The notes beneath the pieces are model-generated. The model made no database searches and was not told the origin of the DNA. It saw only the letters and a list, made by a program, of their open reading frames with translations. Position numbers and translations under genes: made by a program. DNA of 64,000 nucleotides from Acidimicrobiaceae bacterium (GTDB lineage Bacteria; Actinomycetota; Acidimicrobiia; Acidimicrobiales; RAAP-2): contig PNAH01000026.1 of the NCBI GenBank assembly GCA_003170315.1, positions 34,312-98,311 of the forward strand, written 5' to 3'. This document shows, in pieces, positions 19,366-58,800 of the stretch. Position 1 is the first letter of the stretch. Each line of letters starts with the position of its first letter.

Positions 19366-19776
19366 GTGAGTATTCTCGTTGGAATTGACGTGCAAGCAAT
19401 CGACGAGGTTGAAGCGTCCATCAAGGAGTTTGGAGCGCGTTACACCCACCGACTCTTCACCGACTATGAGATTGCAAGTTGTGGCGACGGTCGGGGAGCG
19501 GCAAGCGGCTTCGCAGGACGCTTTGCCGCGAAAGAGGCCGTATTAAAGATTCTTGAACTGAACGAGACCGTACCGCGCTGGAAGTCCATCGAGGTACGTC
19601 GATCGTTGGGCGGGCGACCCGAAGTCGCGCTCCAAGGCGCAGCCGCCAAGATAGCTCGATCCCAAGGGATCGAGGAGATCTTTCTCAGCATCAGTCATGG
19701 CGGTGGAATCGCTAGCGCAACGGTCATTGCTCAAGTGACTCAAGGTCGGATTGGAGCACGTAAGTGGGCGACGTGA
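19366..19776 (+). CDS. holo-[acyl-carrier-protein] synthase-like 4'-phosphopantetheinyl transferase
   Basis: VGIDVQAIDEVE...FTDYEIASC...GFAGRFAAKEAVLKIL...ISHGGGIASATV; GTG start. Confidence 0.88.
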   Translation: MSILVGIDVQAIDEVEASIKEFGARYTHRLFTDYEIASCGDGRGAASGFAGRFAAKEAVLKILELNETVPRWKSIEVRRSLGGRPEVALQGAAAKIARSQGIEEIFLSISHGGGIASATVIAQVTQGRIGARKWAT

Positions 19777-20024
19777 ACGTCACAATTCGAGACGTGCTCG
19801 AGGCGCATGGTCGCTTACTGGTCTCATTGTCGAACTTGAGCGATGACGACGATCTCTTCGAAAATGGACTGACATCTCACGCTAGCGTCAACGTGATGCT
19901 CGCCATAGAGGACGCGTTCGACGTCGAATTCCCCGATTCGCTTCTGACGAAAAGTACGTTCGAATCGATAAAGGCAATTCGTGAAGCCCTGGAGTCGATG
20001 GGAGTCGAAGCTCCTTCCGATTAG
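19764..20024 (+). CDS. acyl carrier protein
   Basis: LSDDDDLFENGLTSHASVNVMLAIEDAFDVEFPDSLLTKSTFESI; overlaps the AcpS-like gene. Confidence 0.88.
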   Translation: MGDVNVTIRDVLEAHGRLLVSLSNLSDDDDLFENGLTSHASVNVMLAIEDAFDVEFPDSLLTKSTFESIKAIREALESMGVEAPSD

Positions 20025-20248
20025 AACCCCAAACGACGAAAGTCCGTTCCGCTAGCCGAGCGCAGTCCAGTTGTCGAGTGAACATTGTTTGGCACGCACT
20101 GTGAGTACAAATTGTGTTCCGCCGATTCAGTGAGTAAGTACTAAACAGTTGTGCTTAAAATGAGGTGGAAGATTTGCGAATTGGGATCTCCACGATCCAC
20201 CTTCGACATAAGCACCACTCCATAAGACACTGATGGTTGAAAACGGGT

Positions 20249-20980
20249 ATGCCAAACTCTGAAGAAATTGAGACATTTCTTGCTTCGATCTACCAAGGCG
20301 AGTTCGGTGAATCTCCTCAGATCGCGAAACGGCTTGCCAAGGTATTGCTCCATCCCGTGTTGACCTGGTCGGCGATTCGTTACGTCGCGCGGTTTCCAAT
20401 TGTAGATATCGGAATTGCGGACTCCGAAAAGTCAAAAGCTCGTTGGATGTTCCATTCGCGACGCCCCTGGAGCGTCCGCGGATACATCTTGTCCTACATC
20501 GAACTTCCATCACCGCTTCATCTGTATTGGCAAGGTACGCCAAAGCAAAACCTCAGAACGCGAACGAACCAAGCTCGCGCCGCTGGCTATACGGTCAGTG
20601 CGGTTGAATCAACTGAGATCAGCGGTGTACTTGCACAAGTGTTCAGAGGTAGGGGATGGGATGAGAACTACATAGAAGAGACGCTGCGTCGCCTGCCGAG
20701 TTCACTCGAAGAAGTCGTTTGTGTTGGTGTGTTCGACCCAAGCGAACGCGCTGTCGCATTTTGCATCGGCACTCAGGCGGGTCAAGTCGTTCGAACTTTG
20801 TGGTCCGCTGCTTCAGAAAGAGGCACGGTACGATGGCTTTGCTTTAGTGGATACGTTGAACAAGTAAACGCTAGAGGCGCGCGGTTCATCATAGAGTCCC
20901 CACCATGGGCCCACATCGGAGAAAACAAGATTTTCGCTGGACACTTGGGATTCACGCCTGCAAGAATTCGTAGCCGTTAG
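20249..20980 (+). CDS. FemAB/GNAT-like acyltransferase
   Basis: YWQGTPKQNLRTRTNQARAAGYTV and C-terminal GNAT-like region; clustered with ACP. Confidence 0.55.
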   Translation: MPNSEEIETFLASIYQGEFGESPQIAKRLAKVLLHPVLTWSAIRYVARFPIVDIGIADSEKSKARWMFHSRRPWSVRGYILSYIELPSPLHLYWQGTPKQNLRTRTNQARAAGYTVSAVESTEISGVLAQVFRGRGWDENYIEETLRRLPSSLEEVVCVGVFDPSERAVAFCIGTQAGQVVRTLWSAASERGTVRWLCFSGYVEQVNARGARFIIESPPWAHIGENKIFAGHLGFTPARIRSR

Positions 20981-21017
20981 GAGTCGGATTTATACTGGCA
21001 GTCCGAAGAGGGTCCCT

Positions 21018-22721
21018 TCAAAGCGAGTCGTTGGCGAAAGTCTCGACAACGTGCCGATCGAGAATTGTGATGGCACGGCCCCGACCTAGGGTGCTGAGAA
21101 AATCGTGGTCCAAACCTGGGACTATCACGACGTTTATATTCTTCGATGAAATCAGTCGACGACCGACGAGCGAGCCGACGACTGGAATCGTATTGAAGGG
21201 CGAAACATCGTTCGGTCCTAACAACAAAAGCATCTCCGAATTGTTTTTGACGAGCGCTGACTTTACCTTCGGAGAGAAGGCGGACAAGAGCACTAGCCGA
21301 GACATCCGTTGAATCATCTCGTCAATGCTCAGGTGGCGTTTAAGTATCTTGTCGAAGCGCTGCGCGAACGATCGAACTGTTTCTCGGTCGGAGTTTCTCA
21401 AGCGGTTTGCACTTCGAACGACGCCAGCGCCAATTTGAGGGTTAATCGCATAGACACCGCGGTTCTTAAGTTCCAACGTGGCTTCAAGAGCTACCTGTGC
21501 CCCGGAACACAATCCGATGAATACCGATTCGGCTGGATTCTCCGGGTTGAGGGCTCGAACTGCGTCGCCGACGTCGGAACGTAGAGTCTTGTCGAACACG
21601 GGTCGATCGGGTTGACCCGGAAACCAAGGGCTCTCGCCCAGCTCATCGAAGTCGAATCGAACGCACCGCAGGCCCAACCCAGCCCATCGCCGGGAGAGAT
21701 CAACCCACAGTCGTGACGGTCCCACGTGGTCTTCGTTGATGCCGTTCACCATCACTATTAACGGTCCTCGAACGTCACTCACAGGTTCGCTCACCATGCC
21801 GAACATTCTCTGAGTCCCTAGCTCCACGACTCTTTCTCGCACCGGAAACGCGATGGACTCATTCTTGATCACCGCGTCAAGCGATTGGGGGACGATCAAG
21901 TACTCAGACTGCTGTGCCTCAGGAGCTGTCAGCCAAGCACGAATCTTTGCGATCGCCGATGCTGGCTGCACCGAGTCGGGTAGCTCCGTATCCAGCAAAG
22001 GTTCTTGTTCACAGGTCGTTGCCCAATCGACATGTTCGGAGTCCCATCGCTGCCGAAATTCCTTCGAGACGTTTCGACTGTCTCGAATGACAACAAGTAT
22101 TCGTTCCGCCGATGGTCGCGATGCGGGATCATTCAAATTGAACTGACCAATTCGGTTCGCGACCTCGTCGCTCAACGGGTATTCCAACATCGTGGTCGAC
22201 TCGCCCAACCCAATTGTGGCCACGTGTCGCCGTAGCTTGCCGAGTGCTCTCAACTCGCGGACGTAGGTGCGCCCTGAATCGCAGGGGTCCCACATTACGA
22301 ACGACGTAAGACTCATATCGTTCGCTGAGGCGGCCGCTCCTAGGATGGTCGCACCCATACGCATGCCGACCGCCGAAACGGAAGAGATTCCCCACGAACG
22401 AAGTAGTTCAACACCTTGTTTGACTCCCTCAACCCACTCACGGTCGAAGCCGCCATCGTCCATCGAGCCGCTCGAGTCGCCCGTTCCGAAGTGATCAAAA
22501 CGTAGCGATACATATCCGTCCATTGCCAAATAGATCGCCAGACTTCGCAGCGCGCGCCGGGCAAGTCGCGACTCTCGACCGATTGGTGGGGACAGGAGCA
22601 CGCCCCCCTTCGTAGTTTCGCCGACGGGCGTCGTTAGCCGGCCGAACAGTGGCTGATCAGTCGAGCCAAACCAGAGGCTCCCTTCGCGGATCTGCCCCTC
22701 GAGCATCGACATCGCTAACAA
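21018..22721 (-). CDS. tandem (fused) alpha/beta hydrolase, similar to exosortase-associated hydrolases 2 and 1
   Basis: Two hydrolase lobes: LRFDHFGTGDSSG...GMRMGA and VRFDFDELGESP...GLCSGA. Confidence 0.78.
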   Translation of the reverse strand: MLAMSMLEGQIREGSLWFGSTDQPLFGRLTTPVGETTKGGVLLSPPIGRESRLARRALRSLAIYLAMDGYVSLRFDHFGTGDSSGSMDDGGFDREWVEGVKQGVELLRSWGISSVSAVGMRMGATILGAAASANDMSLTSFVMWDPCDSGRTYVRELRALGKLRRHVATIGLGESTTMLEYPLSDEVANRIGQFNLNDPASRPSAERILVVIRDSRNVSKEFRQRWDSEHVDWATTCEQEPLLDTELPDSVQPASAIAKIRAWLTAPEAQQSEYLIVPQSLDAVIKNESIAFPVRERVVELGTQRMFGMVSEPVSDVRGPLIVMVNGINEDHVGPSRLWVDLSRRWAGLGLRCVRFDFDELGESPWFPGQPDRPVFDKTLRSDVGDAVRALNPENPAESVFIGLCSGAQVALEATLELKNRGVYAINPQIGAGVVRSANRLRNSDRETVRSFAQRFDKILKRHLSIDEMIQRMSRLVLLSAFSPKVKSALVKNNSEMLLLLGPNDVSPFNTIPVVGSLVGRRLISSKNINVVIVPGLDHDFLSTLGRGRAITILDRHVVETFANDSL

Positions 22722-22848: not shown

Positions 22849-24063
22849 TCACTTTGAGGCGACGGCGTCGCGCGCCGCTGCACCGTCACGAAGCAGGGGC
22901 ACGAGACGCCTGCCAAAGTCAATTGCATCCGCCAGTGGATCGAAACCCTTGAGCAACAATGTGGTGATACCGAGGTCGCAGTAGCGCAGCATCGCCTCAG
23001 CAACCTGCGTTGGCGTACCGACCAGGGCGGTCGAGTTTCCGGCCGCGCCCGTGAGGTTGGCCACTTTCATCCAGAGTCGCTCGTCGTACACGTCCTTGTC
23101 GGCGGACATCTGAATTAACCGTTTGCGCCCGACGGATGTCGTTCCACTGGTCGCACGGTCGACGGAAAAGGTGGCGTTGCGCTGGCCGCCGAGGCCCGCA
23201 TAGGTGTCTTCGCGGCCTTTCATACGTTCCTTTGCTAGTTCGATCCGTGCCGCTGTCTCCGCGGCGATCCACTCCGCTTTTTCCCACGCCTCGTCTTCGG
23301 TGTCAGCGATGATTGGCCGTAGTGACAGGCTGTAGCGCAGCGTGCGACCGACTTTTGCCGCGGCGTTGTTGATAGTTTCCATGCGAGCGGCGACTTGATC
23401 ACGAGGCTCTCCCCAGAATGCATATACGTCCGCTTCCGCCGCGCCGACTTCGATCGCGGGCGCAGAAGCGCCAGCGAAATAGAAGGGAATGCCCTCTGGG
23501 GTGGCCGGCTTCACCGAACTAAAGGCGTTCTCGTAGTGGTAGAACTCTCCTTTGTAGTCAAAGGGTGCGTCCTCACGCCAGAGACGGCGCGCGACCGCCA
23601 TCATTTCGCGAGTTCGTCGATAGCGCGTGTCGTGCGGAACGAAGTCGCCCTCTCGACGCTGGTCCGCCTCATCGCCGCCGGTGATGAAGTGGATGGCGAT
23701 CCTCCCACCTCCGGTGAGGTGATCAAGAGTGGCCGCCATTCGAGCCAACACCACCGGCTGGATAAAACCAGGACGTTGGGCCACCAGTACTTTCAGTCTC
23801 TTCGTGCAGTTGAGCACCGTGCTGGCGACGGCCCAACCCTCGGGCCCGACGGCTCCGTATCCCACCAGGACGCGGTCGAAGCCCGCGTCCTGGTGAGCCT
23901 GCGAGATGTCGATCAGATAGTTGGGATCGATCACGGGACCGTCCATCCAGTCGACGACGGGACCATCCACCAGGGGCCCCTTTATTTCCGAAGCGTCCCT
24001 CGTGCCCACCATGCCTATGATCTCGACTGGCATCGCCTCGCGTCCTTCCGTCTCTGTCGCCAA
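22849..24063 (-). CDS. LLM-class flavin-dependent monooxygenase, alkanesulfonate monooxygenase (SsuD)-like
   Basis: VLVAQRPGFIQPVVLARMAATLDHLTGGGRIAIHFITGGDEADQRREGDF...GEFYHYENAFSSVKP. Confidence 0.88.
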   Translation of the reverse strand: MATETEGREAMPVEIIGMVGTRDASEIKGPLVDGPVVDWMDGPVIDPNYLIDISQAHQDAGFDRVLVGYGAVGPEGWAVASTVLNCTKRLKVLVAQRPGFIQPVVLARMAATLDHLTGGGRIAIHFITGGDEADQRREGDFVPHDTRYRRTREMMAVARRLWREDAPFDYKGEFYHYENAFSSVKPATPEGIPFYFAGASAPAIEVGAAEADVYAFWGEPRDQVAARMETINNAAAKVGRTLRYSLSLRPIIADTEDEAWEKAEWIAAETAARIELAKERMKGREDTYAGLGGQRNATFSVDRATSGTTSVGRKRLIQMSADKDVYDERLWMKVANLTGAAGNSTALVGTPTQVAEAMLRYCDLGITTLLLKGFDPLADAIDFGRRLVPLLRDGAAARDAVASK

Positions 24064-24136
24064 AACCGGCGCTTAGAGCTTCGCAACCAGTGTTTGTCTT
24101 TAATCGAACGCCCAGTTGAACGCTAACATCCGGTTC

Positions 24137-25432
24137 ATGCCTGGGGACACGGTTGATGAATCGACCAGCGAGAAGCGGCCCCTTGTGGCCGTGGGATACG
24201 GACCCCGTTGTGTACCGGTCATGCAACTCACCGAGGCCGCTGCTGGTCTCTGTGAGTTGCTCTGGCTGATTGACGGGTCCATACCCGAGATGCGCCAGAT
24301 GACTGAACTCTTGCACCGATTTGGGCCAGTGGTGGACATCGATGGACTTCGGGTCGATCAGATCCTCGAAGAGCTGTCCTCGCCGTATCGACCCGTGGGG
24401 ATTGTCACGTACTTGGACGCCAATATGTCAACGTTCGCGCACGTCGCCGAGGCACTCGGTCTTCCTTTTCACTCCGTCGCCACGTCCATTGCGCTGACCG
24501 ACAAGACTGTTCAGAGGCAGACATTGAGGGATGCTGGCCTCTCGATGCCAACTTCCTTCGCGATTTCTCCTGATCAACCTGAGACGAGCCCGGTCGCCAT
24601 TGAGTCCGAGGTCGGCTGGCCCGCAGTCCTGAAGCCACGTTCGGCCCAGGGCAGCCGCTACACCTTTTTCGTGAAGGACGAACGGGACCTCATCGGGTTT
24701 CTTCGAGCGCTGGGGCCCACGCGCCCCGACATGGTTCTCGAGTCGTATCTCGCCGACGATCCGGAACGAGATGGCCAGCCCTTCGCCGACTACGTGTCCG
24801 TCGAAAGTGTTGTTGCGAATCGGGTCATTAGCCACTTGGCGTTGACGGGTCGATTTCCTCTCGCAGAAAACTTTCGCGAGACTGGTTTTTTCATTCCCGC
24901 CGACTTAAATGATGCAGACCAAGTAGCTGTTCAGGCTCTCGCAACATCCGCCATCGAGGCGCTTGGCGTGACGACTGGATGCCTGCACACCGAGATTAAG
25001 TTCACGCCTGACGGTCCTCGGATCATCGAGGTCAACGGTCGTGTCGGAGGCGGCGTCCCCGAAATGCTCTATCGCGCAGCGGGGGTCGCGTTGGTAGAGG
25101 TCACCCTGCGGGTAGCGCTTGGAGAAGCTGTTCATGTCGAGGGTCCCGTCGCAACGGAGCGCATTGGTTACCGGTTCTTCTTGCAGCCACCTCCCTTGTC
25201 AGCCACCGTCGAAGCGATCAATGGCATCGATGCCGTGACCGACTATCCGGGAGTAGACACAATTACGGTGCATCAGAGCCCTGGGGCGGTCCTTGACTGG
25301 AAGGACGGATCGCGCAATCACATCATGGCGGTAGTCGGATCCGCCGCTGACTACGACGAGTTGCGAGCTGTCGATCAACTACTTAATCATGAGGTTACGG
25401 TCACGTACGCCAACGTGAGCCACGACGGGTGA
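24137..25432 (+). CDS. ATP-grasp carboxylate-amine ligase
   Basis: GWPAVLKPRSAQGSRYTFFVKD; TEIKFTPDGPRIIEVNGRVGGGVPEML. Confidence 0.88.
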   Translation: MPGDTVDESTSEKRPLVAVGYGPRCVPVMQLTEAAAGLCELLWLIDGSIPEMRQMTELLHRFGPVVDIDGLRVDQILEELSSPYRPVGIVTYLDANMSTFAHVAEALGLPFHSVATSIALTDKTVQRQTLRDAGLSMPTSFAISPDQPETSPVAIESEVGWPAVLKPRSAQGSRYTFFVKDERDLIGFLRALGPTRPDMVLESYLADDPERDGQPFADYVSVESVVANRVISHLALTGRFPLAENFRETGFFIPADLNDADQVAVQALATSAIEALGVTTGCLHTEIKFTPDGPRIIEVNGRVGGGVPEMLYRAAGVALVEVTLRVALGEAVHVEGPVATERIGYRFFLQPPPLSATVEAINGIDAVTDYPGVDTITVHQSPGAVLDWKDGSRNHIMAVVGSAADYDELRAVDQLLNHEVTVTYANVSHDG

Positions 25433-26403
25433 CAGTGCGTCTGCATCAGGGCTCGGCGAATGTCGAGTCCTCAGCCAACCGCGGCGAAAGTTCCGTTCAC
25501 TTGACGTGTGCCCTGGTCAACAACATGCCAGACGGCGCGTTTGACGCCACCGAACGTCAATACCTTGGACTAATCGATGAAGGCTCGGGTTCCAATGTAA
25601 TTGAACTGCGCCGATATGCCATGCCTGGCGTTCCGAGGGGAGTAAAGACGTCGGCTCGCATCGCCGAGCAGTACCAGCCCTTCAACAACATCTATCAGGA
25701 CTCTCCGGACTTCTTGATTGTCACGGGATCGAATCCGATCGAAGCGCGCATCGAAGACGAGCTCTACTGGTCTGATTTGGTCACGCTTCTCTCGTGGGCG
25801 CGAGAACGCGTCAGCTCGGTGCTCTTATCGTGCCTTTCGGCCCACGCGGCGCTCACAGTCTTTGATGGCGTCTCTCGGATCCGATTGCCGACGAAGTGCA
25901 CCGGAGTGTTTTCACAACACGTTGACGCCGACGAAGAACTCACCGCCGGAATCGAAACGGAAATCCTCCTTCCTCACTCGCGCTGGAATTCGGTGCCCCG
26001 AGAGGCTCTGGAACACGCCGGCTACAACGTTGTCGTCCACTCCGATGTGACTGGTTGGAGCGTGGCGACAAGACAAGAAGACGGGCGCCAACTCGTTCTC
26101 GTGCAAGGGCACCCTGAATACGATCCCTCGAGTCTGCTGCGCGAATACCGTCGCGATGCGGGACGATTCGTGCGCCACGAACGAGACGATCCGCCCTATC
26201 TTCCGTACCACTGCGTATCGCCCGAGGACTGGGCACCGCTTGTTCGGATGCATGACGAGATCATGGATGGCGTTCGCGAACCGTTCGTCATCGACCAGTA
26301 TCCCTTTGACGAGGTCGGGGACCGAGCCCCGTGGCCGTGGCGCTCGATGGCCACGCGCTTCTATTCCAACTGGTTGACTAGCGTCGAACACGAGAAGGAA
26401 TGA
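25429..26403 (+). CDS. homoserine O-acyltransferase (MetA-like) family protein
   Basis: LVNNMPDGAFDATERQYLGLI, FLIVTGSNP, LLSCLSAHAAL, PHSRWNSVP, LVLVQGHPEYD; 4-bp overlap with the ATP-grasp gene. Confidence 0.85.
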   Translation: MTVRLHQGSANVESSANRGESSVHLTCALVNNMPDGAFDATERQYLGLIDEGSGSNVIELRRYAMPGVPRGVKTSARIAEQYQPFNNIYQDSPDFLIVTGSNPIEARIEDELYWSDLVTLLSWARERVSSVLLSCLSAHAALTVFDGVSRIRLPTKCTGVFSQHVDADEELTAGIETEILLPHSRWNSVPREALEHAGYNVVVHSDVTGWSVATRQEDGRQLVLVQGHPEYDPSSLLREYRRDAGRFVRHERDDPPYLPYHCVSPEDWAPLVRMHDEIMDGVREPFVIDQYPFDEVGDRAPWPWRSMATRFYSNWLTSVEHEKE

Positions 26404-27680
26404 CCATGCACGACGAGACCATTGCTATCCATGCCGGCTACGAGGCCGACGGCACCCGTGCAGTCGCGGTGCCCATCTACATGACTGTCGCGAACGACTT
26501 CATCGACGCGGAGCACGCCAACTCGATTATGGACTTGGCAATACCGGGCTTTCACTACAACCGGATCAACAACCCCACGAATGATGTGTTAGAAAAGCGC
26601 CTCGCCGCCTTGGAGGACGGAACGGCGGCCCTCGTCGTGGCCTCAGGAATGGCGGCGGTGAGTTACGCGATCCTTACGGTAGCGACCGCGGGTTCGAACT
26701 TCGTCGTGGCTCCTCAGTTGTACGGCGCGACGTACACCTATTTCGCGCACGTGCTCTCGACCCTTGGAATTGAGGCACGCTTCGCGCCAGATGACCAAGC
26801 CCAGTCGATCGGAGCGTTGATCGACGATCGAACCTGTTGCGTGTTTCTCGAGTCAATCGGCAATCCGGCGGGCAACGTGGTCGACATTGAGGCCGTCGGG
26901 GACGTCGCGCACCGCTCCGGAGTGCCCCTGATCGTCGATAACACGGTGGCCACACCTTTGATGTTGAAGCCGCTGCATCACGGCGCTGACGTCGTCGTTC
27001 ACTCGCTGACGAAGTTCATTGGCGGTCACGGGACCACCCTTGGCGGCGCCATCATCGACGGCGGAAGTTTCCCATGGGCAGAAAACGCGGAGCGATTTCC
27101 GATGTTCAATCAGCCCGAGATTGCGTTTCACGACGTCGTCTTCGCTCGAGATTTCCCCGAGAGACCGTTTGTTGTTCGAGCTCGGTCAATTCAACTTCGC
27201 AACACTGGGGCCACACTCTCGCCGTTCAATGCCTTTCAACTCCTTCAAGGTCTCGAAACGTTGGCCATACGTCTCGATCGCCACGAGGCCAACGCCCGTG
27301 ACGTTGCCGCCTACCTGGCGAACGATCCGCGCGTTGAGTGGGTGAGTTTTGCCGGTTTTCCGGACAACCCCTACTACTCGCTGGTCCAGAAATACTTGAA
27401 AGGGAGAGTCCCGTCGATCATCACCTTTGGGGTGTCGGGCGGATACCAAGCAGGGATCACATTCTTCGATTCGGTCCAACTCTTCAAACGGCTCTTGAAC
27501 TTGGGTGACGCGAAGTCATTGGTGATTCACCCGGCGTCGACGACGCACCGTCAACTGAGCGAAGGTGAGTTGCTCGCGGCGGGGATTCGGCCTGAGACGA
27601 TCAGGCTCTCGATTGGACTCGAGCACATTGACGATCTCATCGATGACCTCGACCAGGCTCTGGCTAAGGCGACCGCGTAA
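26400..27680 (+). CDS. O-acyl-homoserine sulfhydrylase-like PLP enzyme (MetY / Cys-Met metabolism family)
   Basis: FHYNRINNPTNDVLEKRLAALE, HSLTKFIGGHGTTLGG (PLP Lys), VIHPASTTHRQLS; ATGA overlap with the MetA-like gene. Confidence 0.92.
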   Translation: MTMHDETIAIHAGYEADGTRAVAVPIYMTVANDFIDAEHANSIMDLAIPGFHYNRINNPTNDVLEKRLAALEDGTAALVVASGMAAVSYAILTVATAGSNFVVAPQLYGATYTYFAHVLSTLGIEARFAPDDQAQSIGALIDDRTCCVFLESIGNPAGNVVDIEAVGDVAHRSGVPLIVDNTVATPLMLKPLHHGADVVVHSLTKFIGGHGTTLGGAIIDGGSFPWAENAERFPMFNQPEIAFHDVVFARDFPERPFVVRARSIQLRNTGATLSPFNAFQLLQGLETLAIRLDRHEANARDVAAYLANDPRVEWVSFAGFPDNPYYSLVQKYLKGRVPSIITFGVSGGYQAGITFFDSVQLFKRLLNLGDAKSLVIHPASTTHRQLSEGELLAAGIRPETIRLSIGLEHIDDLIDDLDQALAKATA

Positions 27681-27694
27681 GCAGCGCGTCGGCC

Positions 27695-29506
27695 TCAGCC
27701 GATGATTTCTTCCACTGTGGCCTGCGCGTCGTAGATGGCGCGAAGCCGGCTTCGTGGCGAGGGAAGGTAGTGCGTGAAGTAGCGAACGCCTTCAGTTAGG
27801 ACACCGAGGAGCGAGAGGCTCGTTTGAATTCGGCCTTCGGCGTCGAAGGGATGGAAGTTTTCACTGATCGCCACGCTGCCGACCGACGTGCCCCCGTAAC
27901 TGAACTGCGTGAGACGACCTTTCGCGTACAAACGACTGAGAAGGGGCGAACTGGATCGAGCAAGTGACGGCAGGTCCAGGTGGCCGCGCACGACGTGATT
28001 GACGGTGGTCTCGAATGACCGGGCGAGTCTGGTCGATCGAATGACTGCCGTACCGTTGTCCGCTGATATCTCTGGATGCGGTCCGAAGGGGACGTGCACG
28101 ACGCCAGCGTCGAGAAGCGCCAGGAGTTGTTGCGAGCGAATCGGTGGTGGACCAGCTTCGAGGCGGTTGATTCGGCCCCGGACATTGGACTGGAAATCAA
28201 TGAAGGACTGCATCGAAAGACCGCCGTATTCGATCACCGCGCGCATTTGATCACGAAGTATTCTCGTCACCTCTTGGGCCGCCTTGACCGGACTGCCACC
28301 GACGGCCAGTGCCTGATGGAGGTCGGTTTCGACCATCTGGTACACGTGTGACTGATAGGAGTCACTCGACTCGAAGCGCGCTCCCGCGTCGGCGAACACA
28401 ACGCTGGCCGGGTCGAAGTTCCCATAGGTCGCCTCCAAGTGATCCACTGCGCGAGCGAAGGTGCCGGCCGTCCAGTTGGAGTGGAGTTGATCTCGAACCA
28501 GCGACGCCGCTGACGGGCCACCATTGAGAAACGCCGAATGCACGTAGTAGCGAACCTGCATTTCTGCGAACAGTAGGGGTAGGAGATCATTTCGAAAGTC
28601 CACGCGTCGTCGCAGCGGTGAACCGGATGGATTGGTCATCTCCTTGAAGGCTTCTGGAGTACAGACGATCGGCTGATAGTCGCCTGTCGGGTCGACACCG
28701 TGCGCCGATTTTGCGCAGTAGGGAACGCCAGTTCTGGAGTAGAAGTAGATGTTGGGTTCGCGCCCGTTAGGTACATAGCGCAGTCGATCACCGACATCTT
28801 TGTACGTGCCGCCGCGCCCAATAGTCAGTGCCGTCACGAGGTCATATCCCACCAGGCCCATCCCGGCAATTGCGAGCGGCTCGTCCGGCGCCACGGTCGA
28901 GTCAAAGTGTTCAACGGGATATGGGCGTAAGTAGTGAACTTCACTTTCGTCGTCGACGCGCTCTTCGTTAAACGTGTGTCCGGAGGTCAGCACGACGTGA
29001 TCAACACTGATCTGCGTGCCATTCTCAAGCCATACGGTCTCGCGACCGCCGATCTCAGGTGTGATGTCGACTGCAGCGGAGTAGTGACGCACGATCTCAA
29101 GGTTCGCCGGTGCTTCCGCGACCAGTGCTTCGTAAAACCACGCCAGATATTCACCCATGAGCCGTCGAGGAAGATAGTCGGTCGCCAAGATCGCTTCGCC
29201 AGCGGAAGCGATTTTGTACTCGTAGCCGACGCGACGGTATCCCTTTTCGAGCGCCCACTCGTACAGACCCACGGCGTAGGCGGGGTCTTCGTCGTGGTCC
29301 GGTGCGGCGTAAAGGGAGAGCTGACCGCATGGGTTATTCAAGATTAAGTAGTCGGGCTGCGCCGCAGAGTAGACCCCACCACCGAGCTGGCCCGGTTCGA
29401 TGACGTGAATCAGGACGGACGTTTCGATGTGTCGTGCTCGGTTTACGGCGCGTTCTAAAACACAGAGCCCCCAAGAACCCAGTCCGACGATGGCGAACTC
29501 GCTCAT
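27695..29506 (-). CDS. FAD-NAD(P)-binding oxidoreductase (large, PF13454-like)
   Basis: MSEFAIVGLGSWGLCVLERAV Rossmann start; GQLGGGVYSAAQPDYLILNNPCGQLS. Confidence 0.8.
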   Translation of the reverse strand: MSEFAIVGLGSWGLCVLERAVNRARHIETSVLIHVIEPGQLGGGVYSAAQPDYLILNNPCGQLSLYAAPDHDEDPAYAVGLYEWALEKGYRRVGYEYKIASAGEAILATDYLPRRLMGEYLAWFYEALVAEAPANLEIVRHYSAAVDITPEIGGRETVWLENGTQISVDHVVLTSGHTFNEERVDDESEVHYLRPYPVEHFDSTVAPDEPLAIAGMGLVGYDLVTALTIGRGGTYKDVGDRLRYVPNGREPNIYFYSRTGVPYCAKSAHGVDPTGDYQPIVCTPEAFKEMTNPSGSPLRRRVDFRNDLLPLLFAEMQVRYYVHSAFLNGGPSAASLVRDQLHSNWTAGTFARAVDHLEATYGNFDPASVVFADAGARFESSDSYQSHVYQMVETDLHQALAVGGSPVKAAQEVTRILRDQMRAVIEYGGLSMQSFIDFQSNVRGRINRLEAGPPPIRSQQLLALLDAGVVHVPFGPHPEISADNGTAVIRSTRLARSFETTVNHVVRGHLDLPSLARSSSPLLSRLYAKGRLTQFSYGGTSVGSVAISENFHPFDAEGRIQTSLSLLGVLTEGVRYFTHYLPSPRSRLRAIYDAQATVEEIIG

Positions 29507-29761
29507 CGCCGCGCGCTCGCTCCAACGTCGCCAGACCACGGATTCGCTGTCGACGTTAGTGCCCTCGCCATGTGACACCACAACTTCATGGTTCTGGCGG
29601 TCCCTTCCTTATTCACGCTGTAAAACTAGGTTACGCCACCGAGATGACGCCGGATTGCTCCGAGAGTGTCGCCATTGCGAGAGGTACGATGACGTAACTC
29701 GGATCCTCGTTTCGTCACGAGACGCGAGTCCCTTAGGGTAAGTATGAGCAGGAGAAGACTC

Positions 29762-30634
29762 ATGGTGAATGACGAGACACTTCAGTTTGGCTCGTTGAAC
29801 GTACGGCGCCTCGGTTTCGGAACGATGCAACTCACGGGTCCGGGTGTGTGGGGACCACCGAGCGATCACGAACGGGCTATAGAGGTCTTGCGTCACAGCG
29901 TCGAACTCGGTGTCAATCTGATTGACACCGCCGACTCCTATGGACCAAATGTCGCGGAGGAACTCGTTCGCGAGGCTCTTCATCCATACCCAGAAACGTT
30001 GACCATCGCCACCAAGGCCGGATTCACCAGGGCTGGTCCGAACCAGTGGGAGGAGTGTGGGCAACCCGACTACTTGCGTCAGCAGTGCGAGGGCAGCCTC
30101 CGGCGGCTCGGCGTCGAGCAGATCGATCTCTTCCAACTTCACCGAGTTGACCCGAACGTCGACGCCGACGAACAGTTTGGCCTCTTGAAAGCGCTGCGCG
30201 ATGAGGGCAAGGTCCGTGAAGTGGGGCTGTCCGCGGTCAACGTGGCTCAGGTGGAGGCGGCGAGACGGATCGTCCCGATCGCGAGCGTGCAGAACCTCTA
30301 CAACATTGCCCAACGCGAGGGCGACGACGTCGTTGACTACTGCCAACAACACCAGATCGGATTCATTCCGTGGTTTCCGTTGGGTAGCGGCAAACTATCC
30401 GTAGACGGTGGACCGCTCGAAGGGCTATCGTTGGAACTCGGTGCCACGGTGCCCCAGATCTGTCTCGCGTGGCTACTTCGTCGTTCGTCGGTCATGCTTC
30501 CCATACCCGGAACGTCATCGCTCGAGCATCTCAAAGAGAACTGCGAGGCTTCGAACGTCGCTCTCTCTGACGCCGCGTACGACAACTTGACTGATTCGCG
30601 CAGAGCGATACGCCGTTGGGCGATGAGTGGCTGA
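29762..30634 (+). CDS. aldo/keto reductase
   Basis: RLGFGTMQLTGPGVWG...LIDTADSYGPNVAEEL...ATKAGF...LFQLHRVDP...GLSAVN; start could be 29744. Confidence 0.92.
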   Translation: MVNDETLQFGSLNVRRLGFGTMQLTGPGVWGPPSDHERAIEVLRHSVELGVNLIDTADSYGPNVAEELVREALHPYPETLTIATKAGFTRAGPNQWEECGQPDYLRQQCEGSLRRLGVEQIDLFQLHRVDPNVDADEQFGLLKALRDEGKVREVGLSAVNVAQVEAARRIVPIASVQNLYNIAQREGDDVVDYCQQHQIGFIPWFPLGSGKLSVDGGPLEGLSLELGATVPQICLAWLLRRSSVMLPIPGTSSLEHLKENCEASNVALSDAAYDNLTDSRRAIRRWAMSG

Positions 30635-30651
30635 ATGAACGAACCGCTTCG

Positions 30652-32400
30652 ATGAGTTCAGATTTGGTAATACGAAACGGTCTAGTCATCGACGGATCCG
30701 GGAACTCGGCGCGACGATGCGACGTCGCGATAGAGGGTCAACGGATCATCGACGTCGGCGATGACATCGGACGAGGTCACCGCGAAATCGACGCCGACGG
30801 ACTCGTCGTGACACCAGGATTCATTGACCCTCATACGCACTACGACGGACAGGCGACGTGGGACCCGTGGCTGGCGCCCTCGTCGCAACATGGCGTGACG
30901 ACCGTGGCGATGGGCAACTGCGGGGTCGGCTTCGCCCCCGTGGCACCGAGCTTTCACAACCAACTCATCGAAATGATGGAGGGTGTCGAGGACATTCCCG
31001 GCACCGCGTTGCACGAAGGACTTCGTTGGGACTGGGAGTCGTTCCCCGAGTACTTCGACGCACTTGATCGTCAAGAGCGCACGATCGACGTGGCCACCCA
31101 CGTCCCACACGCGGCACTGCGCGCGTACGTCATGGGCGAACGCGGTGGTGATTCCCTCGAACAACCCGAAGAACATGAACTCGAAAAGATGGCGCACCTT
31201 TTGGGCGAGGGACTCGAGGCTGGCGCGCTCGGCATCTCCACGTCGCGCACGGAACGGCACCGAACCAGCCGCGGCGAGAACCTCGGAACTCTTCGTGCTG
31301 GAGAACCAGAGCTACAGGCTCTGGCGTCGGTGTTGAAAATGAAAGGACGTGGGGTCTTTCAGCTCGTCTCCGACAGCTACCGAACTGCAGACGACGACTT
31401 CGCTCGCTCGGAGTTTTCGTTGATCTCAGAGATTGCCCGCACGAGTGGACGTCCGGTGAGTTTCACCGTTCAGCAGGACTTCGAAGCCCCCGAGAGGTGG
31501 CGCGACCTAATGGCGTTAGCGCAGTCGCTTCAACTCGAAGGACTCGATGTCAAGGCGCAAGTCGCTCCTCGACCCATCGGTGTGCTCCTCGGCCTCCAGG
31601 CGTCAGCCAATGTCTTCACGCCAGTTCGGGCGTACGCGCGCATCGCCCAACTGCCGCTCGCCGAACGGGTCATCGCGCTACACAACTCTGAACTTCGCCA
31701 GCAGATACTCAAGAGTCACGCGGCCCTAACCTCGGGCGATGACGCCTTCGAGGGTCATGCTTTCTTTGGCCGCTTCGACGAGATGTTCGTCCTCGCTGAG
31801 CCGGTCAACTACGACCTCGACCCCAGTCAATCTCTCGGCGCAACGGCTCGTCGACTAGGGGTCGACCCCCGAGAATATGCCTATGACTTGCAGTTGCAAC
31901 GAGAGGGTCGTCAGCTCATCTACACGCCTTTTTTCAACTTTGTCCGCGGCAACCTCGACGCGGTTCGCGAGATGATCACGTCGCCCGTCGCGATGTTTGG
32001 ACTCTCCGACGGGGGTGCGCACTGCGGTGCAATCTGTGACGCCAGTATGACCACGAGCTTCATGACACTGTGGGCACGCGGTCGAACCGATGAGACGAGA
32101 ATCCCTCTTGAGTCCGTCGTGCACCAGTTGACTCAGCGACCGGCGGCGCACTTTGGATGGATCGATCGAGGTCTCATCGCTCCAGGACTTCTTGCCGATC
32201 TCAACATCATTGACTTCGAGGGACTCGCCTGCGCATCGCCGCGCATCGTCACGGACTTGCCTGCGGGAGGACGTCGTCTCCTGCAGTCGGCTAGCGGGTA
32301 CCGCTACACCATGAAGCGCGGGTCTGTAACGTTCGAGGACGGAGTCGAGACCGGAAAGCTTCCCGGCAGATTGCTCCGTGGGTCCCAGAGCGGCAACTGA
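30652..32400 (+). CDS. N-acyl-D-amino-acid deacylase / amidohydrolase family protein
   Basis: LVIRNGLVIDGSG, GFIDPHTHYDGQATWDP, GVTTVAMGNCGVGFAP, FGLSDGGAHCG. Confidence 0.9.
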   Translation: MSSDLVIRNGLVIDGSGNSARRCDVAIEGQRIIDVGDDIGRGHREIDADGLVVTPGFIDPHTHYDGQATWDPWLAPSSQHGVTTVAMGNCGVGFAPVAPSFHNQLIEMMEGVEDIPGTALHEGLRWDWESFPEYFDALDRQERTIDVATHVPHAALRAYVMGERGGDSLEQPEEHELEKMAHLLGEGLEAGALGISTSRTERHRTSRGENLGTLRAGEPELQALASVLKMKGRGVFQLVSDSYRTADDDFARSEFSLISEIARTSGRPVSFTVQQDFEAPERWRDLMALAQSLQLEGLDVKAQVAPRPIGVLLGLQASANVFTPVRAYARIAQLPLAERVIALHNSELRQQILKSHAALTSGDDAFEGHAFFGRFDEMFVLAEPVNYDLDPSQSLGATARRLGVDPREYAYDLQLQREGRQLIYTPFFNFVRGNLDAVREMITSPVAMFGLSDGGAHCGAICDASMTTSFMTLWARGRTDETRIPLESVVHQLTQRPAAHFGWIDRGLIAPGLLADLNIIDFEGLACASPRIVTDLPAGGRRLLQSASGYRYTMKRGSVTFEDGVETGKLPGRLLRGSQSGN

Positions 32401-32411
32401 GCGAAAGAACG

Positions 32412-33962
32412 ATGTTGACGAGCCACAGCGTGCTGCACGAGATCATCGATCGAGCGCTTGCCGATCCGAGCCACCCGGCGGCGACCGATCTCGATCGTGA
32501 GTTGAGTTACGCGGAACTTATTGATGAAGCAGCTCGTCTTGCCACCGGTCTTAACGATCATGGAGTAAGCGAGGGCGATCGCGTCGCTCTGCTCATCCCC
32601 AATTCAGTTGACTTCGTCGTCGCGGCGCTGGCCAGTTTGTGGGTCGGAGCCATCTTCGTTCCTTTGGCAATCACTGACCCGCCGTCGCGCTTGCAGATGA
32701 TCGTCGCCGATTGTGCGCCGGCACTCGTCATCACGTCTACACGAGAGGGCCACGAACCTCCCGCCTCACTAGGAGGCGTACAACCGGTGCCACTACAAGA
32801 ACTTCGTGTAGAGGGCCGGGCACCGGCACCAGAGTCGAACGTCTCTTCGAGCGTGGCGTACATGATCTACACCTCGGGCACAACGGGGAGCCCGAAGGGA
32901 GTCCAAATCGGCAACGCAGCGTTCTCCGCTGCGGTGAGATCAATAGCTGATTCACTTGGAATCGTCCGAACGACCAGGACATTGTGCGTGTCGCCTTTTC
33001 ACTTCGACGGTTCTTATGCCAATTTGTTCCCAACGTTGGTCGTAGGCGGAACCGTCATAATCCGCCCCCGAGAGGCGCTCTTATTTCCTCGAACGTTCTT
33101 CAACACGGTCGAGCAAGAGAAGATCACTTATTCGGGATTCACACCCAGCTATCTGCGATTGCTGCTCGCGAGCCCACAGGTGGGCAATCTCCGCAACTCA
33201 ACGCTCGAGATGATCGCTCTGGGCGGTGAGGTAATTTCAGTCACCGATCTTCGAGAGTTCTGGGCACGCTTGCCGTCGATTCGAGTGTTCAATCGCTATG
33301 GGCCGACCGAGACGACGATTGCGGTCACGAACGTCGAACTTACGCCAGACATGATCGAAGGCGGCACCGTCACGATTGGCCGACCACACCCGGGTGTCTC
33401 CTTCGTTCTGGTGGACGACCATGAACGGGTCATCGAAGCGGCTTACCAGACCGGAGAGTTATACATTGGAGGCGATCAACTCATGGACGGATACTGGACA
33501 AATCCTGAACTGACGAGTCACGTGATGCGCAGCGATCTCGTGCCAAACGTAAAGCTATACCGATCGGGAGATCTCGTCTACCACGACGAAGACGGGAATT
33601 ACGTATACGTGGACCGGACTGATCGGGTAATCAAACGAAGTGGCGTGCGCATTTCGCTCGTCGAACTGAGCGCGTCGATGAACAAAATCGACCACGTCGT
33701 GGCGGCAGCCTGCTTGACATTCGACCGTGACGGCGAACTCGGCATCGTCGCCTTCGTGATCTCCGAAGTAGAGCTCACCGCCATCGAAGCGCGCCGCGCG
33801 GCCAGCCAACTCATTCCCGAGAACATGCTGCCCGATCGAATTGAGTTTGTCGCTTCGATGCCGTTAAACACGTCAAATCAGCTGGACGAACCCCGATTAT
33901 TGGCGGCGGCCGGCCTTCGACCGTTTCAACCGATCACCGCACAACCCCCTGTCCCTACTTGA
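32412..33962 (+). CDS. stand-alone AMP-binding / amino acid adenylation protein
   Basis: YMIYTSGTTGSPKGVQIGN, NRYGPTETTI, YRSGDLVYHDEDGNYVYVDRTDRVIKRSGVRI; no carrier or condensation domain. Confidence 0.9.
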   Translation: MLTSHSVLHEIIDRALADPSHPAATDLDRELSYAELIDEAARLATGLNDHGVSEGDRVALLIPNSVDFVVAALASLWVGAIFVPLAITDPPSRLQMIVADCAPALVITSTREGHEPPASLGGVQPVPLQELRVEGRAPAPESNVSSSVAYMIYTSGTTGSPKGVQIGNAAFSAAVRSIADSLGIVRTTRTLCVSPFHFDGSYANLFPTLVVGGTVIIRPREALLFPRTFFNTVEQEKITYSGFTPSYLRLLLASPQVGNLRNSTLEMIALGGEVISVTDLREFWARLPSIRVFNRYGPTETTIAVTNVELTPDMIEGGTVTIGRPHPGVSFVLVDDHERVIEAAYQTGELYIGGDQLMDGYWTNPELTSHVMRSDLVPNVKLYRSGDLVYHDEDGNYVYVDRTDRVIKRSGVRISLVELSASMNKIDHVVAAACLTFDRDGELGIVAFVISEVELTAIEARRAASQLIPENMLPDRIEFVASMPLNTSNQLDEPRLLAAAGLRPFQPITAQPPVPT

Positions 33963-36075: not shown

Positions 36076-37167
36076 TTAGCGGCGACTTGCTTCTTTGTAA
36101 GTTTCGATAGTCTCGCGAGCGACATTCGTCCAATCGAATCTTGTCGCCCAGGCAAGTCCAGCAGCTCCCATATCTTGATAATCCGCCTCCGAAAGCATCT
36201 CAGCTTGCTGAAGGGCTTCGACGAGCGGTCCCACTCCGGGGTCGAATCGGATCGCGGCGTTATTGGGAATGTCGGTAAGAGCTGGCAATTTTGGAATCAC
36301 GATGGGTTTGCCGAAAGATTGAGCAAGCAGAAGAGAAGCGCTGTTGGTAATTGCGCGAAACGGAAATACAGCGACATCAGTGGCTTGAAAGTAGCGAGCA
36401 AGATCTTCGTCCGGCACCCACTCGAGCCTCGACACGGTTCTTCCTTGTGTCCCACTTATGAGTCGATTCACTTTCTCGCGGTAGTCCTGATCCGGACAAA
36501 AGCCAGCGATAAGCAACTTGATCCTCGACGACTCCGGGAGTTGCGCGATGGCCAGTAAGAGCAGATCTGCTCCCTTGTATTCTTCAATTCTCCCGATTAG
36601 AGCCACCACCACATCGTCACCACTGAATCCAAAGCTCGCGCGCGCTTCTTTCCGCGTGAGCGTCACCGGATAGCGATCGGCATACGGTCCAATCGGAATA
36701 ACCCGCACCAAGCGGGCACCCAATGCACGAAGCTCGGTCGCGGTTGCCTCCGAGAGTGCTATCACAACTTTTGCCTTGGACAGGAGGAGCTCTCGTGCCC
36801 GAACATCATCGGCAAATACTTGCTCGTGCGGCAACAGATCATGAGCCGTCCAAACGATGGCGTAACCCACTGATTGAGCCGTTCGAAGATACAAGCCGAA
36901 CCACCACTCCATGATCTGCCTGGCCCACTGTTGTCGTGGCGCCCACGGAAGTGAGAACTGATAGATCCAGTGGATGTGCAGAATGCGAGAGCCGCGTGCC
37001 CGGTGCCAGATCAAAAGGGCTGGTGCCAGGAGGATGTTGAGGGTTTGAGAAGGAGTGGGGCCGCGGGTGTAGCGAACTTGTATTCCCGAAGCCTCAATAT
37101 CTTGATAAAGGAGATCTTGATAGTGCCGAACACGTGGCGTGACCAACACCGACAGCCTCGAAGTCAC
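36076..37167 (-). CDS. glycosyltransferase family 4
   Basis: VVVALIGRIEEYKGADLLLLAIAQL...FPFRAITNSASLLLAQSFGKPIVIP. Confidence 0.85.
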   Translation of the reverse strand: MTSRLSVLVTPRVRHYQDLLYQDIEASGIQVRYTRGPTPSQTLNILLAPALLIWHRARGSRILHIHWIYQFSLPWAPRQQWARQIMEWWFGLYLRTAQSVGYAIVWTAHDLLPHEQVFADDVRARELLLSKAKVVIALSEATATELRALGARLVRVIPIGPYADRYPVTLTRKEARASFGFSGDDVVVALIGRIEEYKGADLLLLAIAQLPESSRIKLLIAGFCPDQDYREKVNRLISGTQGRTVSRLEWVPDEDLARYFQATDVAVFPFRAITNSASLLLAQSFGKPIVIPKLPALTDIPNNAAIRFDPGVGPLVEALQQAEMLSEADYQDMGAAGLAWATRFDWTNVARETIETYKEASRR

Positions 37168-38309
37168 TTACCTGGTCTCACTAATTCGTGGAGTACTCCA
37201 GCTCCCATTGCCAGATGGTCGAGAAGCACAAGGCCCCGAAGTTCCTCGTTTCGATGACGCCACATAGGCCACAACAGCAGCAATGGATACCACCGCCATT
37301 TTAACGTCAACGGAAGGCCAATCAAAAAGATTGCGTAGGCGATGGGTGCCGAGTTCAGTTGCGCAGCTTCGCCGATCCGATGCGGATGCTTCCGAAGAAG
37401 CCGGCACTCTCCTTTTCCATAGAAAAAAGCTCTGCGAAGTTGTCGCGTCGGGGTGCCATAATCATGCATGACGACTGCGTCCGGCACCCACCGCAGGCGA
37501 TAGCCGCAATCAGTCAATCGCCAAGTGAAGTCGAGATCCTCCGCCGCCCCGAAGGACTCGTCGAATCCCCCCACGGCCTCGAAGGCCTCACGTCGAAAGG
37601 CCAAGTTGATCGTTGCCGCCATCGGTACGTAGTCAACGCGAGTGTCCGCGCCGGAAGACTGCACCCGCGAATAGACGCTCTTTCCAATCGCTCGTGCGGG
37701 GCCACAACAAACAATTTCGTTCTCGTCGAAAATTGGCGAGAGTAATCGCTCGAGCCAACCATCCTCCGGCAAGCAGCCGGAGTCGGTGAATACGATTACG
37801 TCGCCCTTAGCGCGTCGCACACCAACGTTTCGCTGATGAGCGATCGTAATGCTTACGCCCACTGGTTGGTCGTAGTCAATCCACTGCGCCCATTCATGAG
37901 ATTCCCGAATGTCATCAAGTGCGCCGCCGGACGCGTCGACAACCAAAACCTCATCGACAATATTCCCGACGAAAGGCTTGATGGCATCGAGCGTGTCACT
38001 CAAAAGTCGTTCGTTCTTGTTGACGATGACCAGGGATACCTCTACAAACCCGTTGTTAGTTTTCTTCAAGCGTGCACTCTCGTCAACCGCGCTATGACTC
38101 TTAACGACCCGCGAAGAAGTCTCTTCTGAATTATGGACCATCGGGCAACTCCTGAAGCTGGAAGAAGCATCTCGACACTCATCTTGATATGTACGTAATA
38201 GTAATCTACCGGTCAATACGTGTACTGACCAACCGTTGTCGCTCTCGCCACGAACTTTCTCTACGAGACCGCGGGACAACAAATGTGAGTACCTTATCCG
38301 GAGCGCCAA
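37164..38309 (-). CDS. glycosyltransferase family 2
   Basis: EVSLVIVNKNERLLSDTLDAI...HQRNVGVRRAKGDVIVFTDSGC...FDESFGAAEDLDFTWRL; true start probably internal. Confidence 0.85.
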   Translation of the reverse strand: MALRIRYSHLLSRGLVEKVRGESDNGWSVHVLTGRLLLRTYQDECRDASSSFRSCPMVHNSEETSSRVVKSHSAVDESARLKKTNNGFVEVSLVIVNKNERLLSDTLDAIKPFVGNIVDEVLVVDASGGALDDIRESHEWAQWIDYDQPVGVSITIAHQRNVGVRRAKGDVIVFTDSGCLPEDGWLERLLSPIFDENEIVCCGPARAIGKSVYSRVQSSGADTRVDYVPMAATINLAFRREAFEAVGGFDESFGAAEDLDFTWRLTDCGYRLRWVPDAVVMHDYGTPTRQLRRAFFYGKGECRLLRKHPHRIGEAAQLNSAPIAYAIFLIGLPLTLKWRWYPLLLLWPMWRHRNEELRGLVLLDHLAMGAGVLHELVRPGK

Positions 38310-45663: not shown

Positions 45664-46830
45664 TCACTGTTTCGTTCCGAACCACTCTCGAAATGCAGCG
45701 TCGGAAAGTGGAGTACCAGGTCCGAGTGCCATCGCCTTAGAGTTTGGCCCTCCCGCCCCATCGAAATAACTTTCGAAGGCGAAGTCTTTGTTAGTAAAAG
45801 TCGAGCCAATGCCGTTGATATACGCCGGATCGTCACTCGCCGGGATTGTCGATAGTCCCCACTCGGGGAGACTCATCGGTTTACCCCTTGCCGCTGCGAA
45901 CGCCTCAAAGCGATTCAGTCCGGCTGGCTCACTCGCGAGCTGCGCGAACGTAAGTCGTGTGGTCGGAGTTTCGCAGCCGACGTCGTACAAATCGAGCCCG
46001 ATAATATCGACAAACTGATTCCCGGGGTAGAAGTTCTGATAGGGATAATTTCCGGTACACGCATTGACGTTCCAATCAAAGAGAAAGTGCTCACCCGCGA
46101 CGTGACGAAACGAAGTAACTTCCTTAGCAAAGCACTTCGCCCACAACTTCTGCTCTGTTTTCTTCGGCCCAATGAAATCAGACTCCCATACCCCGTTCAT
46201 CTCTGGTCCAAGGCGAATCACCGTATTCTCTAAACCGGCTGAGACCAGATTTGCACCTAGTTGCCTCGCGTAGGAGTTGTATGCCCCGGTCGCGCACGAC
46301 TTCTCCCATTTCATAGGATTTTTTACATTCTCAAGTTTATTTGGAATTAGGTTCACCGCTACGACCAGTTGGCGAGATTGAGGTTGCTGAGCAACCCACG
46401 AGGCAAAACCAACCTCCGTAGAGTCAACCCAGGGGTGTATCCATCCCGACCAAGTCTGTGCAACTGTATATACAGAAAGACAGGGCACGGTACTTCCCGT
46501 TACCGAATCGAAACTCGAAACCAAGGATTGTACGTAGGCGAGGCCGGATTTAGTTGAGTCCGGATTCAGCGTGACACATTGACTCCGAGATGGGCCTGCC
46601 GTAATCAATCCGTCCACCGGCGGTGAAGTTGTCGTAGTCGTTGAAGTCGTTGAAGACGACGCATTGGCACGGGCCGCAGAACTATCGGCGCGCGCGACCA
46701 GATGTTGATTCGTCGTTGCCCCTCCGGAAGGAACAGAGACCATAAATGAAAGAACCGCCATTGCGGCGACGGCAGCCGAGATAATCGCAGAATGCGCACC
46801 TCGCGTCTTAGCGGCGTTTTCTCTCTTCAT
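45664..46830 (-). CDS. secreted GH26-like glycoside hydrolase, paralog 1
   Basis: Signal/TM region, Ser/Thr linker, NTVIRLGPEMNGVWESDF and KPMSLPEWGLS (candidate catalytic Glu residues). Confidence 0.78.
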   Translation of the reverse strand: MKRENAAKTRGAHSAIISAAVAAMAVLSFMVSVPSGGATTNQHLVARADSSAARANASSSTTSTTTTTSPPVDGLITAGPSRSQCVTLNPDSTKSGLAYVQSLVSSFDSVTGSTVPCLSVYTVAQTWSGWIHPWVDSTEVGFASWVAQQPQSRQLVVAVNLIPNKLENVKNPMKWEKSCATGAYNSYARQLGANLVSAGLENTVIRLGPEMNGVWESDFIGPKKTEQKLWAKCFAKEVTSFRHVAGEHFLFDWNVNACTGNYPYQNFYPGNQFVDIIGLDLYDVGCETPTTRLTFAQLASEPAGLNRFEAFAAARGKPMSLPEWGLSTIPASDDPAYINGIGSTFTNKDFAFESYFDGAGGPNSKAMALGPGTPLSDAAFREWFGTKQ

Positions 46831-47068
46831 TCGGGGGTATCCCTTTACTCGTCTCATTCTCAACATTTCGGAGTCGGGCGTCGACGACCTCACGACCATA
46901 ACTTTCAGTCAATCAGCAATAACCGCAAGAAAAAGTAAGCCTACCAGTCAAATCTGGATCGGCACTCCGCAGCGGTTCAGCTTCACATCAAATTCCATGA
47001 ATACGCTGATCCCACGTCGAGGAATTCGCCATTGAATGAATCCGGCACCGCTCTAACTGCCACGCTCT

Positions 47069-58660: not shown

Positions 58661-58800
58661 GTTGTATAAATTCACAGGCGCAAATCGCGGCAACGCCTAC
58701 GGTCCCACAACATTCACCCAACTTGGTCAGACAACGCGGTTTACCAGGACTTTTGGGGAATCTTTTGTATTAAAAAGTTGCGTCTCATTGACGCCGCGTA

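Follow-up and report, generated by a model that had tools for sequence, protein, structure and literature searches.

Amino acid:[carrier protein] ligases (NCBIfam PRK07080/PRK07081) are class-II-synthetase-like enzymes, reportedly described by Mocibob et al. in 2010. From gene neighbourhoods the ligase system was predicted to add an amino acid to the amino group of a cell-surface sugar by amide ligation (PMC2922099), and the role of the ligases was stated to be unknown in 2022 (PMC9437257), twelve years after their discovery. The DUF1839 proteins, which are found in related operons, are papain-like and perhaps glycan-directed (PMC10318531). Here we describe a fused double alpha/beta-hydrolase that belongs with this ligase system. 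It is encoded in a 64,000-nucleotide stretch of DNA from an Acidimicrobiaceae bacterium (assembly GCA_003170315.1, contig PNAH01000026.1, positions 34,312 to 98,311 of the forward strand), referred to in its entirety as the window, together with the following genes:

19366..19776, plus strand: AcpS-type phosphopantetheinyl transferase (Pfam PF01648 (ACPS) 50.4 bits and TIGR00556 68.9 bits, both above cut-off)
19764..20024, plus strand: stand-alone carrier protein, CP (Pfam PP-binding 29 bits, above cut-off; NCBIfam PRK07081 100.8 bits against a cut-off of 72)
20249..20980, plus strand: FemABX-like GNAT-fold protein (fold match), in the slot between CP and hydrolase where relatives have the amino acid:CP ligase
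21018..22721, minus strand: fused double alpha/beta-hydrolase (TIGR03101 and TIGR03100 matches, residue statistics, AlphaFold2 (AF2) model)

The window shares with the ligase system a CP of the same family, scoring above cut-off, an apparently dedicated AcpS and the same fused hydrolase, which occurs in operons of many phyla including those of Azospirillum and Rhizobium. Unlike those operons, the window locus is devoid of an acyl-CoA dehydrogenase (ACAD)-like gene, and carries instead a stand-alone adenylation-domain (A-domain) enzyme and a block of MetA, sulfhydrylase and ATP-grasp type genes. The combination of a stand-alone A-domain enzyme with a stand-alone CP, and the logic of surface-polymer aminoacylation, are also found in the DltA/DltC-dependent D-alanylation of teichoic acid; however, DltA/DltC models match the window proteins far below cut-off, and neither DltB nor DltD was found among the genes examined. 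Transfer from a CP to a sugar, as proposed below, likewise has a counterpart in the BtrH-type transfer of an aminoacyl group from a CP to the amino sugar of butirosin, and related operons contain the papain-like DUF1839, although the latter is absent from the window genome. Literature searches revealed no paper on the fused hydrolase, and no description of it as a component of the ligase system was found.

The fused hydrolase and the ligase system

Co-occurrence was assessed in 150 genomes of the window's family. The fused hydrolase is present in 50 of these and the ligase PRK07080 in 39, with both in 37, hydrolase only in 13, ligase only in 2 and neither in 98 (Fisher p 1.1e-21, a value which, like those given below, overstates independence since the genomes are related). 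Physical linkage was analysed in the 43 loci with >15 kb of sequence, where the ligase was located within 8 kb of the hydrolase in 31 cases, a CP in 33 and an AcpS in 26. The gene order in relatives is AcpS - CP - [ACAD-like] - c4 - [DUF1839 - GH2] - hydrolase, and the operon reaches from alphaproteobacteria to Myxococcota, Gemmatimonadota and Verrucomicrobiota. Here c4 is the amino acid:[acyl-carrier-protein] ligase PRK07080 (405 bits in L132, above the cut-off of 357, and 353 bits in L056, below it), and the gene of ~850 amino acids encodes a GH2-type glycosidase. DUF1839 was found in 17 of the 150 genomes, all 17 ligase-positive. The public annotation of plasmid AZO_p5 of Azospirillum lipoferum 4B (AZOLI_RS28510-28485) lists an acyl carrier protein, an acyl-CoA dehydrogenase family protein, an amino acid--[acyl-carrier-protein] ligase, DUF1839, GH2 and an alpha/beta fold hydrolase.

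PRK07081, to which the window CP is assigned, is the CP family that partners the ligases in related operons. The predicted phosphopantetheine attachment site is Ser38 of the motif GLTS (codon 19875-19877). The open reading frames (ORFs) of AcpS and CP overlap, positions 19764-19776 being common to both, and the AcpS gene adjoins that of the CP in most relatives, an arrangement consistent with an AcpS dedicated to this CP. A preliminary description of the window, made from the letters alone, had placed an AcpS and an acyl carrier protein here; both genes are found as described, with family scores above cut-off, and the neighbourhood with AcpS and CP is conserved in many genomes. Conversely, its suggestion of an actinobacterial system is too narrow, as the fused hydrolase occurs in many phyla. 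An alignment-based scan located it also in Nocardioides, Humibacter, Luteimicrobium, Acidobacteriota, Burkholderiales, Steroidobacter, Myxococcota, Gemmatimonadota and Verrucomicrobiota, and it is carried on plasmids of Azospirillum, Rhizobium, Cupriavidus and Burkholderia. Scanning genome contigs for a pattern derived from the window hydrolase alone gave no relatives; it was the alignment query that found them. Apparent hydrolase "fusions" of 1300-1420 amino acids in L126, L129, L133 and L134 were rejected, their N-terminal parts being Arg-rich translations without match to GH2 or other tested module families. In the genus-mate G141 (L036) the hydrolase is split into two frames (ORFs of 473 and 241 amino acids), reflecting a frameshift, sequencing error or decay.

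Lobe 1 of the window hydrolase (residues ~16-265) matches TIGR03101 hydr2_PEP over residues 24-163 (71.3 bits, E 9e-20, cut-off 202.75), and lobe 2 (residues ~290-563) matches TIGR03100 hydr1_PEP over residues 310-544 (64.4 bits, E 1e-17, cut-off 168.45), both scores being about one third of the respective cut-off. The fusion of two hydrolase types had been recognised in the preliminary description, but the order is hydrolase 2 followed by hydrolase 1 (TIGR03101 then TIGR03100). In the AF2 model (pTM 0.86) two alpha/beta-hydrolase lobes are seen, with Arg121 (codon 22359-22361) and Cys405 (21507-21509) at strand-helix elbows; all listed PDB matches to this model are esterases and lipases with a single lobe (best TM by query length 0.35), and no solved two-lobe relative is among them. 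Cys405 is predicted to form a triad with the acid at position 505 (21207-21209) and His539 (21105-21107). When 40 family members were aligned, the lobe 1 elbow read G-x-R-x-G, with Arg in 40/40, and the lobe 2 elbow G-x-C-x-G. Residue statistics over 130 fused copies from several phyla gave a similar picture: the lobe 1 Arg is found in 120/123, and lobe 2 retains Cys in 116/118, Asp/Glu505 in 113/118 and His539 in 114/118. The Cys nucleophile assigned earlier to lobe 2 (GLCSGA) is thus well conserved. Lobe 1 (GMRMGA) indeed has no nucleophile, as had been noticed, yet the site is not merely vacant: a conserved Arg occupies it, and lobe 1 is best regarded as a putative pseudo-hydrolase in which Arg replaces the nucleophile.

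Links to glycan assembly and a proposed mechanism

In L032, a window-type cluster of the genus-mate G134, the hydrolase ORF runs in frame into a family 2 glycosyltransferase (GT2). The GT2 domain is 66.6% identical over 323 amino acids to a free-standing enzyme of the window:

37164..38309, minus strand: family 2 glycosyltransferase, homologue of the GT2 fused to the hydrolase in L032

This GT2 is a probable functional partner of the window hydrolase. Fusions to a polysaccharide flippase domain are found in Rhizobium sp. NLR16a and in L063 (Acidimicrobiales), a flippase gene lies directly upstream of the hydrolase in L108, and the Rhizobium operon contains a GT4 gene. A further candidate in the genus-mate G103 (L033:8336-11389(-)) was not counted: its hydrophobic N-terminal extension of ~460 residues is flippase-like by eye, with no Pfam match. 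The in-frame GT2 and flippase fusions suggest that the hydrolase is tied to glycan assembly, in agreement with the cell-surface sugar prediction (PMC2922099) and the papain-like nature of DUF1839 (PMC10318531). The exopolysaccharide (EPS)-type surroundings noted in the preliminary description are borne out by GT2, GT4 and GH26-like genes at 36-58 kb of the window, and its idea of an aminoacyl-thioester system close to glycan genes agrees with the ligase co-occurrence, the operons and the GT2/flippase fusions. The two GH26-like glycoside hydrolases are found at 45664-46899 and 57329-58693; the first has homologues in the vicinity of the hydrolase in L031 and L036.

We propose, with a probability of about one half, that the module acts as a small, stand-alone pathway based on aminoacyl thioesters and serves cell-surface glycan assembly. 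AcpS would generate the holo-CP, and an adenylating enzyme would load an amino acid onto it: in most relatives the ligase, and in the window probably the A-domain enzyme (32412-33962). The aminoacyl group would then move from the carrier to the Cys of lobe 2 (Cys-acid-His), forming a thioester, and from there to a hydroxyl or amine on the sugar of a glycan-lipid precursor, which the neighbouring glycosyltransferase would make and a flippase would move. Lobe 1, with Arg for nucleophile, may serve as a pseudo-enzyme that docks either carrier or acceptor. Our computations cover gene identities, residue patterns, co-occurrence, operon structure and fusions, and from these we infer every chemical step, as well as the amino acid and the acceptor. 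With a constant operon partner carrying a conserved, mutable Cys and Arg, the GT2/flippase fusions and the complete Azospirillum operon, the destination of the amino acid becomes directly testable, which offers a handle on the purpose of a loading system that has gone unexplained since 2010.

An alternative role for the fused hydrolase is that of an editing (type II) thioesterase freeing mis-loaded or oxidised aminoacyl groups, with transfer performed by DUF1839 or by the FemABX protein of the window. This role would fit the suggested action of the papain-like DUF1839 on glycans (PMC10318531), the occurrence of the fused hydrolase outside DUF1839 operons and the presence of a FemABX-fold protein in the slot of the ligase. 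For the latter protein a family search returned no significant match (best Pfam LPG_synthase_C, E 0.13) and a sequence search of solved structures found nothing. Its AlphaFold model (pTM 0.78) gave Sbb17/Sba18 (aminoacyl-tRNA-dependent peptide synthases), FemX and MprF as best PDB matches (E 1e-7 to 1e-6, TMq 0.44-0.49), so that the modelled fold appears FemX-like and aminoacyl transfer is a putative activity. The FemAB/GNAT assignment in the preliminary description is consequently retained as regards the fold but not as regards a conserved partner: homologues are found in 5 of the 150 genomes and are unlinked elsewhere (on another contig in G116), and the protein was rejected as a conserved member of the module. 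Turning to the hydrolase itself, replacement of Ser by Cys in a nucleophile elbow disfavours simple hydrolysis, and the GT2 and flippase fusions are more in keeping with a transferase that takes part in glycan assembly than with a proof-reading enzyme. Moreover, most hydrolase-positive genomes do not encode DUF1839 (17 DUF1839-positive versus 50), and we consider the editing role rather unlikely.

The A-domain enzyme and the conserved metabolic block

Adjacent to the hydrolase, the window carries a series of metabolic genes which ends with the candidate loading enzyme:

22849..24063, minus strand: luciferase-like (alkanesulfonate-monooxygenase-like) enzyme (PF00296 217 bits; 82-88% identical in L031, L032, L036, L061 and L178)
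24116..25432, plus strand: ATP-grasp ligase (PF13535 above cut-off; in relatives, ATP-grasp genes are repeatedly found next to the hydrolase)
25429..26403, plus strand: MetA-like homoserine O-acyltransferase (PF04204 189 bits; the sole such gene in the genome)
26400..27680, plus strand: O-acylhomoserine sulfhydrylase-like pyridoxal phosphate (PLP) enzyme (TIGR01326 558 bits, above cut-off)
27695..29581, minus strand: FAD/NAD(P)-binding protein of the conserved block (PF13454 104 bits)
29744..30634, plus strand: aldo/keto reductase of the conserved block (PF00248 218 bits)
30616..32400, plus strand: amidohydrolase of the conserved block (PF07969 176 bits)
32412..33962, plus strand: stand-alone A-domain enzyme of non-ribosomal peptide synthetase (NRPS) type, candidate CP loader (PF00501 257 bits; TIGR01733 315 bits)

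Most genes of this block (22849-33962) are kept at 60-90% identity in G116, G134, G141, G111 and G037, with the order conserved in several genomes, and the block resembles a biosynthetic cluster that has not been described. Its A-domain enzyme probably loads the window CP, because the A-domain gene adjoins the CP gene in G116 (L031, where the CP lies directly beyond it) and the hydrolase in G119, where it has part of the block on one side and the hydrolase on the other. In L034 it adjoins hydrolase/AcpS/CP, and in L206 (G053) the block is contiguous with AcpS-CP-ligase. The substrate Asp235-equivalent is present (FDGS).

Several observations weigh against the proposed pathway. The A10 lysine, which normally drives adenylation, is replaced by Gln in the window and by Met in L031 (G116); it is kept in the A-domain orthologues of L034, L206, L210, L214 and L215. 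The association of this enzyme with the module, put forward in the preliminary description, is supported by linkage in L031, L034 and L206, but the window copy lacks this lysine. As the lysine is missing and searches of the window genome for the ligase PRK07080 and for DUF1839 showed both to be absent, the window A-domain copy may use altered chemistry or be losing function, and the loading step may be changed or lost. A simple swap of ligase for A-domain enzyme is likewise weakened, since both are present in the one cluster of L206 and the window lysine is missing. Outside the window genome, the hydrolase occurs without the ligase in 13 of the 50 hydrolase-positive genomes. Finally, in a Pseudomonadaceae locus (L149:1590-11541) a hybrid NRPS-polyketide synthase (PKS) of 2740 amino acids precedes separate genes for hydrolase 2 and hydrolase 1; the Arg/Cys hydrolase pair accompanies assembly lines too, and because of this its partner may be any thioester carrier.

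The same neighbourhood can be read in terms of a small diffusible metabolite, where the MetA-like, sulfhydrylase, ATP-grasp, luciferase-like and A-domain enzymes would build an unusual amino acid, with the CP carrying its activated form and the hydrolase setting it free. Such a product would be consistent with the conserved order of the block and its contiguity with AcpS-CP-ligase in L206, with the MetA-like gene, which is found only in hydrolase-positive genomes (14/14 of its carriers, p 5e-8), and with the paired hydrolases following the NRPS-PKS in L149. However, L032 possesses this block as well, and the GT2 fusion there argues for a glycan; the amino acid made may simply be the one that goes onto it. 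We therefore regard a diffusible product as unlikely.

Relation to exosortase-associated hydrolases

The preliminary description had compared the module with exosortase-associated genes. Searches with the exosortase-associated models it had pointed to do match both lobes, albeit below cut-off as given above; unrelated families are not the best matches, and the neighbourhood is conserved in other genomes. The exosortase A-associated hydrolases are homologous over both lobes and share the gene order as well as the Arg of lobe 1 and the Cys of lobe 2. Among 14 Burkholderiales exosortase-type hydrolase 2 genes scoring over the cut-off, Arg was found in 14/14, and the adjacent hydrolase 1 has Cys in 14/14. 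As the same residues occur in genuine exosortase hydrolases, the Arg/Cys pair is apparently an old feature common to both groups. This allows a broader, tentative proposal, which we would not yet favour: that the pair of pseudo-hydrolase and Cys-hydrolase constitutes a general, uncharacterised class of acyltransferases, moving aminoacyl groups from stand-alone CPs (loaded by synthetase-like ligases, A-domains or acyl-CoA-ligase-like enzymes) onto glycan precursors during export. If true, one chemistry would be common to the amino acid:CP ligase operons, to the accessory genes of exosortase A and to the window cluster, and the occurrence of this pair at exosortase loci would account for two unassigned families together.

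Shared residues and the TIGR03101/TIGR03100 matches could also indicate that the window holds a divergent exosortase (PEP-CTERM) accessory module, the exosortase having been lost or gone unrecognised, and fused versions do exist within the genuine exosortase clade (L186 and L188, see below). Nevertheless, no exosortase (PF09721) match was obtained in the window's genome (94.5% complete), extending genome-wide the absence already noticed in the preliminary description. Exosortase is found in 9 of the 150 genomes, with no significant co-occurrence (5/50 hydrolase-positive versus 4/100 without, p=0.16), and the hydrolase neighbours belong to another system. In the lobe 1 tree the exosortase clade and the fused clade, which includes the window hydrolase, are split with 100/100 support, and the scores are about one third of the cut-offs. 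In combination, these results leave the homology of both lobes standing and largely refute the exosortase reading for the window's genome, which we judge very improbable.

Genuine exosortase hydrolases 2 and 1 are themselves fused in 2 of the 14 Burkholderiales cases (L186:1486-3237 and L188:511-2310). The lobe 1 tree puts both inside the exosortase clade, a position that suggests a separate fusion event.

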